NCBI RefSeq assembly: GCF_000337495.1
Contig: NZ_AOIS01000054.1
Coordinates: 89,721 to 129,530 of the forward strand
Direction of reading: 5' to 3'
DNA length: 39,810 nt
DNA from: Haloterrigena salina JCM 13891
GTDB lineage: Archaea; Halobacteriota; Halobacteria; Halobacteriales; Natrialbaceae
A program made the position numbers and the translations under genes. The notes below the pieces were generated by a model, which saw only the letters and a list, made by a program, of their open reading frames with translations, searched no databases and was not told the origin of the DNA. Shown here piece by piece: positions 13,753-18,790 of this stretch. How positions within the stretch are numbered: position 1 is the first letter of the stretch; each line of letters starts with the position of its first letter.

Positions 13753-15075
13753 ATGAAACGTCGTGCATATCTCAGTGTGATCTCAGCAGCCACTATTGCC
13801 GGCTGTACCTCCTCAGAGGATCCAAATTCTACGAACGATCCAAATCCCTCAGATAATACGGATTCATCTGAAAATTCGACGGCCTCTGACGATAGTGATG
13901 AAACACGCTCTTTCGACGATTACGTAACTAATGATGGAGTCAAAATCGGTCTCGACGAAATTGAACTGAGCAACTCCATCACACTAGAATCTGAATCGCT
14001 ATTGGACCGTAGTTCGAAAGTTGCCGTTCTTGTTTCTGTGACCGCCAAAAACATCTCAAATGGAACGAGAAATCTCCCAGATAGGGACGAATTCAATCTA
14101 CTTGCAGGAACCGACCAGTTCGATGCGTTTTCCGATCCGTTTAGCAGTGATACGATAGTCGAACCCGTTTCTGGAGAGCTATACTACGGCCAGACCAACG
14201 TTCATCCAGGTGTCGCTGAAGAGGGGTGGATCCTCTTCGAAGTCCCGCGTTCCCTTTCGGAAATCACGATCGCCTGGAGTGATTCCTTTGATGACTCTGA
14301 TCGATACGGATGGACCACTGCAATCGAGCCGGATCAACTCCCAGATCTTCAGGTATCCTCTGTAAGTGTTGCAGAACCAGTTCGGATTGGTGAAAACTCC
14401 GAAGTCGCCGTGTCGATAACCAACGAGGGCGGAACAGCTGGAACATACTCTGCAGACTACGAAATCGATCTTCCCATTGAGTCTGATTCTGGGCAGATCG
14501 AGCAAGAAGTCGCTGCTGGTGACACGGAAATGTGGACGACGACTATCACTCCGAGAGCGATCGGTGACGGTCTCCTCGAGATAGAATCTGAAGAAGTTGC
14601 ACTACGTTTCTCTATCGGGGGTGCACAACACCAATTCGGTGAAACAGTCCAAACCCCATCTCCAGAAAACGCATATATAACAGTCAGCGAGCCAATTCTG
14701 ACGCAGTGGTATGAATATGAGCGGTATGATGGAATGAAGCGTGTAGAATCAGAGTCCAACGAGCAATTCGCAATCGTTCAAATTGAGGCCAAAAATAGAA
14801 CGAATTCATCAGTCAATAGTTTCGGTCGACGTTCGGTTACTCTCTCAAATAGTACAAATGAATATGAAGCCGGTTATTTCGAGGGAATCTCTGGTCCAGT
14901 AAACCCCGTTGACGGGTCTCAACTCAATTCCTTTGGGATCTCACTTTCTGCAGGTGAATCGGAAACCTACGTAGTACTATTTGAAATCCCCGCTGATATC
15001 GGAGTCGACGATCTCGAGTTCTTTGCAGAATGGTCACTTGAATTCATGACAGACACGAAAGCAACTTGGCGGTAG
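13753..15075 (+). CDS. Tat lipoprotein with DUF4352/CARDB-like beta domains
   Basis: A 440-residue lipoprotein. MKRRAYLSVISAATIAGCTS has a twin Arg and a lipobox with C18, followed by a Ser/Asn/Asp-rich linker to about residue 52. Residues about 60-190 form a beta domain (KVAVLVSVTAKNISNGTRNL, then GWILFEVPRSLSEITIAWSD) like the DUF4352/telokin-like domains of secreted proteins. About 200-290 resembles a CARDB adhesion-type module (LPDLQVSSVSVAEPVRIGEN, VAVSITNEGGTAGTYSADYE). About 305-440 repeats the first type (FAIVQIEAKNRTNSSVNSFG, ETYVVLFEIPADIGVDDLEF). It would sit on the outer face of the membrane and bind something through its beta surfaces, with ligand unknown. Codon use is AT-rich, like the rest of the island. 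A strong leaderless promoter precedes it. Confidence 0.85.
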   Translation: MKRRAYLSVISAATIAGCTSSEDPNSTNDPNPSDNTDSSENSTASDDSDETRSFDDYVTNDGVKIGLDEIELSNSITLESESLLDRSSKVAVLVSVTAKNISNGTRNLPDRDEFNLLAGTDQFDAFSDPFSSDTIVEPVSGELYYGQTNVHPGVAEEGWILFEVPRSLSEITIAWSDSFDDSDRYGWTTAIEPDQLPDLQVSSVSVAEPVRIGENSEVAVSITNEGGTAGTYSADYEIDLPIESDSGQIEQEVAAGDTEMWTTTITPRAIGDGLLEIESEEVALRFSIGGAQHQFGETVQTPSPENAYITVSEPILTQWYEYERYDGMKRVESESNEQFAIVQIEAKNRTNSSVNSFGRRSVTLSNSTNEYEAGYFEGISGPVNPVDGSQLNSFGISLSAGESETYVVLFEIPADIGVDDLEFFAEWSLEFMTDTKATWR

Positions 15076-15329
15076 CGACTGAGGAAAACGAAGAGTGTCA
15101 TTGTCAAGCACCACTTGGTAGTACCGTAATTTTCCGGTGTTATTCAGTTGACGATATCTAGTACTCAGATCAGTAGTATTCGTGATCTCGGTTGCAAGAC
15201 CCAGCCTTCATTCTCCCTCTCTTCTGCTCCCGAACGAGCGATGACAGTTCGTAGACATCAGTAGGTTGTCTTGTGGATACCACATAACGTGCCCGGCTAC
15301 GGCTCTCCAGTGACCCCTCGAGACGTATT

Positions 15330-15337
15330 CGACAACT
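15330..15337. repeat. Target site duplication, left copy
   Basis: CGACAACT, identical to 15569-15576 on the other side of the inverted-repeat element. Confidence 0.85.
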
Positions 15338-15568
15338 GGCACTGTCTAGATAAGGAAAACCGCAGGACTGAGAGATGATGAAGTTGTGGCATCAGCTGTG
15401 ACATCACTATCTATAGCCTGATACAACGACACACTGTTCCATGAGCGGCGAAAATCCAGCTGTTTCAGCATACTTCTCACAAAGCGTGACTATATCCGCT
15501 TTCACTACGACGCCGAAGCAGACGCTAAAACGCCGGTAGATACATGAACCGCTTAACTAGACAGTGCC
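15338..15568. mobile_element. 231-bp MITE, probably IS6-family-related
   Basis: The left end reads GGCACTGTCTAGATAAGG and the right end, on the opposite strand, GGCACTGTCTAGTTAAGCGG, matching at 16 of the first 17 positions. The element is bounded by a perfect 8-bp direct repeat CGACAACT. Eight-bp duplications and ends starting GGCACTGT are typical of IS6-family elements. It is too short for a transposase and no transposase fragment is visible, so it would be non-autonomous and moved in trans by a related full-length element elsewhere in the genome. The intact duplication and near-identical ends suggest a fairly recent insertion. Confidence 0.85.
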
Positions 15569-15576
15569 CGACAACT
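15569..15576. repeat. Target site duplication, right copy
   Basis: CGACAACT, directly after the right inverted repeat of the 231-bp element. Confidence 0.85.
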
Positions 15577-15824
15577 ACAAATGTCGAGTTACTACCACGT
15601 CCAACGAGCAGGACTCGCTCGGAGGGCGGGACGTCGAAACAGCGTTCTCGCAGTCCATTCCGGCCGCTACTCCCCCAGAGATGCCGATAACAACGAGCGT
15701 TACAGCAGCTCTAAGAATACTTGTGAGACAGGAAAACGAGAAACTCAGCTAAATTTGGATGGAGCCCGCAAACGTAACTGAACCGAGATACCCCCTTTTT
15801 GCCGTCTGCCCCGAACCCGGTGAC

Positions 15825-17566: not shown

Positions 17567-18790
17567 ATGAAAGAGGGATATCTCGTCGACGAGCCCGCGC
17601 CTGGGAAGTACTTGCCCGCCGACAGTGCGGCCAAGCTTCCCGCGGCGAAGTTCTATCTCCCGAACGATCTCCCTCCGGAACTCGATCTTTCCGCAGACGT
17701 GGTTCGGGCACACGGCCGTGCGATGCATTCGTTGGGACGGCTGGACGGGTTTCTCAGTGAAATCGAGGATCCTGATACGGCGCTCGGATTGTTCGTCTTC
17801 AAGGAGGCGGAGCAATCGTCGCAGGTCGAAGGGACACAGGTCACCGTCTCGGATATGCTGCGGAAGGACGCGGACTCGAAGGACGTGCGAGAAGCTCGGA
17901 ATTACGTGCGTGCGCTACAGGAAGCTGCCGACGAGCTCCGCGAAAGCGGTCACTCACGGGAGCATCTCTCGAACGAGGACCTCAAGTCGTTGCACGAGTC
18001 GTTGATGGAATCTGGACGAACGGACGACGAAGACCCCCGCCCGGGCGAGTATCGAGACCAGTACATCTGGATCGAGGAGGATCTTGATTTCGGTCGACAG
18101 ATACGGTTCGTACCGCCGAAGCCGGAGATCGCAACCGGGAAAATGGAGAATTTTGAGGAGTATATGCAGTCGGAGGGAGAGTATCCCGATCTAATTGATA
18201 TCGGCGTTCTCCATTACCAGATCGAAACGATACATCCATTTTTGGACGGGAACGGCCGCGTCGGTCGGTTGCTCATCGTCCTGATGTTACTCGCCGCAGA
18301 CATACTGATGCATCCGCTATTTTACCTGAGCTCCTACATTCGACGAAACAGGCACGAGTACACCGACTTACTGCTGGCGGTCAGCGAAGAGAATTGCTGG
18401 GAAGACTGGTTGTTGTTCTTTTTGCGGGGAATGAGGGAGCAAGCCGACGAGGCGTTTAGTCGAGCGAAGCTGATCTTAGATCTTCGAGATCGGTACGAAC
18501 AGCGATATCGAGACGCGCGCCCCTCCGTCAGGGAACTCATTGATGCGATCTTCGAGGAACCCGTCTTCACTGTCTCGAGAGCCGCTGAATTAACCGACAG
18601 AAGCTATCCGGCTACGAATAGTGCTATCGATCGGTTAGAGAGCGACGGGATAATTCGAGAAACGACAGGAAAGGAGCGATACCGAGAATTCCAAGCCGAA
18701 GAGGTCCTCAACGTACTAAACAAATCTGTGGCCGAAATACCGTCCCCCGGAGAACTCATCTCTGAAACGAATTCCGAGACCGGTCCGTGA
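17567..18790 (+). CDS. Fic family protein (AMPylase), self-inhibited class II type
   Basis: A 407-residue Fic protein. The catalytic loop is HPFLDGNGRVGR (H223-R234), a complete match to HPFx[D/E]GNGRxxR, so transfer of AMP (or a related nucleotide moiety) to a target hydroxyl is expected. The inhibitory helix motif [S/T]xxxE[G/N] lies N-terminal, as S84-S-Q-V-E88-G89, making it class II with built-in control by E88. A Fic_N-like region precedes it (KFYLPNDLPPELDLSADVVR). The C-terminal part (about 330-395) is a winged helix (VFTVSRAAELTDRSYPATNS, IDRLESDGIIRETTGKERYR). This architecture is widespread in bacteria and archaea, and targets are mostly unknown. It stands alone after the truncated nucleotidyltransferase. 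Codon use is less GC-rich than the core genes, consistent with transfer. Confidence 0.92.
   Translation: MKEGYLVDEPAPGKYLPADSAAKLPAAKFYLPNDLPPELDLSADVVRAHGRAMHSLGRLDGFLSEIEDPDTALGLFVFKEAEQSSQVEGTQVTVSDMLRKDADSKDVREARNYVRALQEAADELRESGHSREHLSNEDLKSLHESLMESGRTDDEDPRPGEYRDQYIWIEEDLDFGRQIRFVPPKPEIATGKMENFEEYMQSEGEYPDLIDIGVLHYQIETIHPFLDGNGRVGRLLIVLMLLAADILMHPLFYLSSYIRRNRHEYTDLLLAVSEENCWEDWLLFFLRGMREQADEAFSRAKLILDLRDRYEQRYRDARPSVRELIDAIFEEPVFTVSRAAELTDRSYPATNSAIDRLESDGIIRETTGKERYREFQAEEVLNVLNKSVAEIPSPGELISETNSETGP

Follow-up and report, generated by a model that had tools for sequence, protein, structure and literature searches.

The segment at 15338-15568 has inverted ends, lies between direct repeats and encodes no protein, and raises the question of what it is, how it came to its present site and which enzyme would move it. 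The window, meaning the whole 39,810-nucleotide stretch of DNA that was analysed, corresponds to G000:C54:89721-129530 in a genome of 4.84 Mb in total. The segment occupies an intergenic site: one gene ends at 15075, and a response-regulator gene begins at 15759. Its arms, GGCACTGTCTAGATAAG and CTTAACTAGACAGTGCC, form 17-bp inverted ends that are complementary at 16 of 17 positions, and the 8-mer CGACAACT is present flush with both arms. The features of the locus are the following.

15330-15337, no strand: left copy of the target duplication (TSD) CGACAACT, read from the sequence and present as a single copy in the unoccupied site of four congeners
15338-15568, no strand: non-coding IS6-type MITE of 231 bp, recognised from TSD-bearing copies, unoccupied sites and the lack of a consistent frame
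15338-15354, plus strand: left terminal inverted repeat GGCACTGTCTAGATAAG; full-length IS6 elements such as L039, L050 and L134 have exactly this 17-mer at their left end
15552-15568, minus strand: right terminal inverted repeat, reading inward GGCACTGTCTAGTTAAG; full-length IS6 elements such as L036, L063 and L142 have exactly this 17-mer at one end
15569-15576, no strand: right TSD copy CGACAACT, read from the sequence and supported by the unoccupied sites

Concerning the insertion itself, each flank (15080-15337 and 15569-15760) served as a separate query against 125 Natrialbaceae genomes. With a single 8-mer between them, the two flanks were then aligned as one sequence to the flank matches. 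Four congeneric genomes (G002, G003, G004 and G005; 74-87% identity) showed unbroken homology through the junction. These unoccupied sites contain a single CGGCAACT or TGACAACT/CGACAACT-like 8-mer, whereas the window contains the element with CGACAACT on either side. The unbroken flank homology and the single 8-mer in the four congeners therefore indicate that the MITE inserted in the lineage of the window, and that the 8-mer is its TSD. The comparison shows one insertion, later than the split from the four compared congeners, that duplicated 8 bp of the target. The preliminary description had claimed a 231-bp MITE with inverted ends and a perfect 8-bp duplication, and had proposed a search for the empty site in related strains. 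The element matched exactly at 15338-15568, 18 copies of the family carry perfect 8-bp TSDs, and the four congeneric genomes without the element, with one 8-mer copy each, provide the empty site.

We then consider the distribution of the element. BLAST identified relatives in 27 of 125 Natrialbaceae genomes. With a family profile based on sequence only and built from 29 copies, matches were obtained in 40 of 391 sampled Halobacteria genomes, 35 belonging to the same family and five to two other families of the order. A pattern scan of genome contigs ran to at least 119 stretches, and the search of a phage collection gave only a 23-bp chance match. Among the non-identical copies with two ends (n=35), 33 are 229-233 bp in length. 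A perfect 8-bp duplication was found in 18 of the 35, and all 18 differ in sequence. As a control, left and right flanks were paired between different copies, which gave no perfect 8-bp match in 1190 pairings. TSDs are decayed or missing in many relatives, as expected for old or recombined copies. The Haladaptatus copies make up a second subfamily; one of these (L144) matched the Natrialbaceae interior profile after removal of its ends (E 3e-8), and BLAST linked the remaining ones to L144. Similarity to the MITE interior was weak in L048 and L073 from Halorussus. A 201-bp element from Halocatena pleomorpha (L059:540-740), counted among the 35 two-ended copies, has exact 17-bp ends and is flanked on both sides by AACTAGAC, which is itself part of the end sequence. 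It has little beyond the ends in common with the 231-bp family, its interior being unrelated, and perhaps represents another IS6-type MITE family. As for neighbouring genes, a Fic/DOC protein gene with Fic_N and Fic domains is present near the insertion in the window (17567-18790, plus strand), and a MITE copy on pHTUR02 of H. turkmenica adjoins a death-on-curing toxin gene.

In its own genome, the family is represented by the complete copy at 15338-15568, a full-length copy that has decayed (C57:271639-271871) and two partial copies at C6:1491-1653 and C57:222412-222574. MITE relics directly adjoin IS6-type right ends at G000:C57:271639-271933 (L166) and C57:222391-222574 (L159), which suggests that IS6 elements and the MITE tend to land in or next to each other.

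The MITE contains no IS6 transposase frame and is thus not an autonomous member of the IS6 family. On the other hand, IS6-type transposase matches occur at seven places in the same genome. One of these, C19:21160-21901, is a complete 742-bp IS6 element with the ends GGCACCGTCTAGTTAGC and GGCACTGTCTAGTTTAG, flanked on both sides by the duplication CTACTGAA. Its transposase frame is uninterrupted and encodes a protein of 224 amino acids from ATG. The protein scored 200 bits against the NCBIfam IS6 transposase model NF033587 (cut-off 125), matched PF13610, and contains EKWFHTLKMR, which fits the signature E--F---K-R of archaeal IS6 transposases described by Harmer and Hall (PMC6807381). Over its full length, the element is 86.9% identical to an element of H. 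turkmenica annotated as ISHtu2.

The ends of this intact IS6 element are a near match to the 17-bp ends of the MITE, with three and one differences. Exact 17-mers of the MITE occur at one end of IS6-type elements, 731-747 bp long, from other haloarchaea; several of these elements have 8-bp TSDs. The exact GGCACTGTCTAGATAAG end was found on L039, L050 (with a broken frame) and L134, and the exact GGCACTGTCTAGTTAAG end on L036, L063, L087 and L142, in both cases with 8-bp duplications. With ends that match an IS6-family element and a TSD of 8 bp as in IS6 copies, the element is an IS6-type MITE. The link to IS6 drawn earlier from the ends and the 8-bp duplication was borne out: full-length IS6 elements whose ends are of this type and whose duplications measure 8 bp occur both in this genome and across haloarchaea. 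A full-length element sharing the ends had been named as the support to look for; the 742-bp element has similar ends, and the exact 17-mers are located on IS6 elements elsewhere. The absence of any other copy and of any IS with matching ends had been named as grounds for rejection; both exist. We also noticed an 835-bp segment in Haloferax larsenii (L075, minus strand from 17) with IS6-type ends and the 8-bp duplication TTTGTCAC. It comprises a 745-bp IS6 reading and about 90 bp with a second end, with N beside the 745-bp end, and either a nested event or an artefact of assembly could account for it.

We consider 15338-15568 to be a MITE with ISHtu2-type (archaeal IS6-family) ends that inserted once with an 8-bp duplication and is most likely moved by an IS6 transposase supplied from elsewhere, and give this reading a probability of roughly 0.95. 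The MITE would move when its 17-bp ends are recognised by an IS6 transposase produced from another element, for example C19:21160-21901. If the transposase forms replicative cointegrates like other IS6 enzymes, the simple insertion would be the resolved end product. Early studies found that IS6 elements give only replicon fusions (PMC7986276); should this be valid in archaea, the simple insertion would have been left after cointegrate resolution.

Could the MITE instead have no lineage of its own and have arisen from an ISHtu2-like IS6 element by decay and internal deletion? Its ends and TSD length, common to IS6 elements, agree with such an origin, but the interior does not. MITE and IS6 sequences diverge right after the first 17-20 bp. 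An interior profile, trimmed by 24 bp per end, found nothing in 21 IS6 elements apart from one match at E 1.3, and a tblastn search of MITE interiors with IS6 transposase gave nothing significant. In addition, many genomes contain this interior again in elements of 230-232 bp. As the ends alone are common to both, no IS6 element examined would yield the MITE by simple deletion, and we regard this origin as improbable. The IS6 parentage proposed in the preliminary description holds for the ends. The interior also bears on another alternative, in which the segment is a conserved gene for a non-coding RNA, or a regulatory element, with accidental inverted ends. Interior blocks are indeed conserved across several genera, and the whole MITE folds better than shuffles (z -4.3). 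However, nearly all copies fold at the level of shuffles when the terminal repeats are removed, and the consensus fold of the alignment is essentially the terminal helix plus two weak short stems, with a covariation term of -0.12. The best Rfam match, sR18 snoRNA, reached 14.6 bits where the gathering score is 45, which is chance level. Moreover, the site is occupied in one lineage, while in four others the element is absent and one 8-mer is present. An RNA or regulatory origin is therefore highly improbable.

That the inverted and direct repeats met by chance has nothing in its favour beyond their shortness, and we give this explanation practically no weight. We scanned the window for exact 8-bp repeats flush with inverted ends matching at 13 or more of 17 positions, at a spacing of 60-1500 bp. 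The MITE, scoring 16/17, was the sole site, and 30 mononucleotide shuffles of the window gave a total of one match at ≥13/17 in the same scan. The arrangement also recurs in other genomes with different TSDs, and the unoccupied sites in congeners refute coincidence.

Returning to the MITE moved by an IS6 transposase, it is conceivable, although we consider it rather unlikely, that the 231-bp elements form an ancient non-autonomous lineage evolving on its own, which exploits many different IS6 elements across haloarchaeal families and whose interior is under selection, for example in transposase binding or in promoting synapsis. As to coding, the longest open stretches change frame and strand between copies, and no frame is open throughout. 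Constancy of length was considered as possible evidence of selection: the average difference between copies is 0.61 bp, but ordinary intergenic flanks are also nearly constant (differences of 1-4 bp over 320), and the MITE has no fewer gaps per substitution (0.21 versus 0.13). We therefore make no claim of selection from length. A scan for sigma-70-type promoters, with a model unsuited to archaea, found none.

Among known systems, ISHtu2 and other archaeal IS6 elements (ISfinder; PMC6807381, PMC7986276) have the same GGCACTGTCTAG-type terminal repeats and 8-bp TSD, whereas the MITE has no transposase and no DNA in common with them beyond the ends. The IS6 MITEs in ISfinder are two, MITEBth2 and MITEHarch3 (PMC6807381), and measure 227 and 336 bp, figures given for the pair jointly (PMC7986276). 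MITEHarch3 resembles the present element in being non-autonomous and filed under IS6, a likeness of description (PMC6807381). Non-autonomous IS6-type elements in haloarchaea had been called little described, which is correct in degree, but ISfinder already lists MITEHarch3. We take the ISHarch elements to be haloarchaeal, and with MITEHarch3 in ISfinder, IS6-type MITEs are already known as a kind, haloarchaea included. The ISHarch elements, whose name prefix is that of MITEHarch3, are archaeal (PMC6807381). Searches of a library of open-access papers gave none on the 231-bp family, and one elsewhere is possible. The 231-bp element is a well-supported new IS6-type MITE, its family being set beside MITEHarch3 by description only. 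Harmer and Hall found no experimental data on archaeal IS6 elements (PMC6807381). The MITE has clean borders and inserted recently; unoccupied sites and a family-wide alignment are available, and its own genome supplies a candidate partner. Together with the IS6 element on C19, it would make up a minimal pair of substrate and enzyme for the question whether archaeal IS6 elements transpose replicatively like IS26-type elements. According to PMC10264941, ISH2, MITEHsal1 and MITEHsal2 of Halobacterium are likewise haloarchaeal MITEs, but the parent named for ISH2 is another element, ISH8. The MITEs of Haloquadratum walsbyi, as presented in PMC3119063, have only terminal bases and TSD length in common with the transposon and are considered to move in trans, and the 231-bp MITE displays the same pattern of likeness to a transposon at the ends only.
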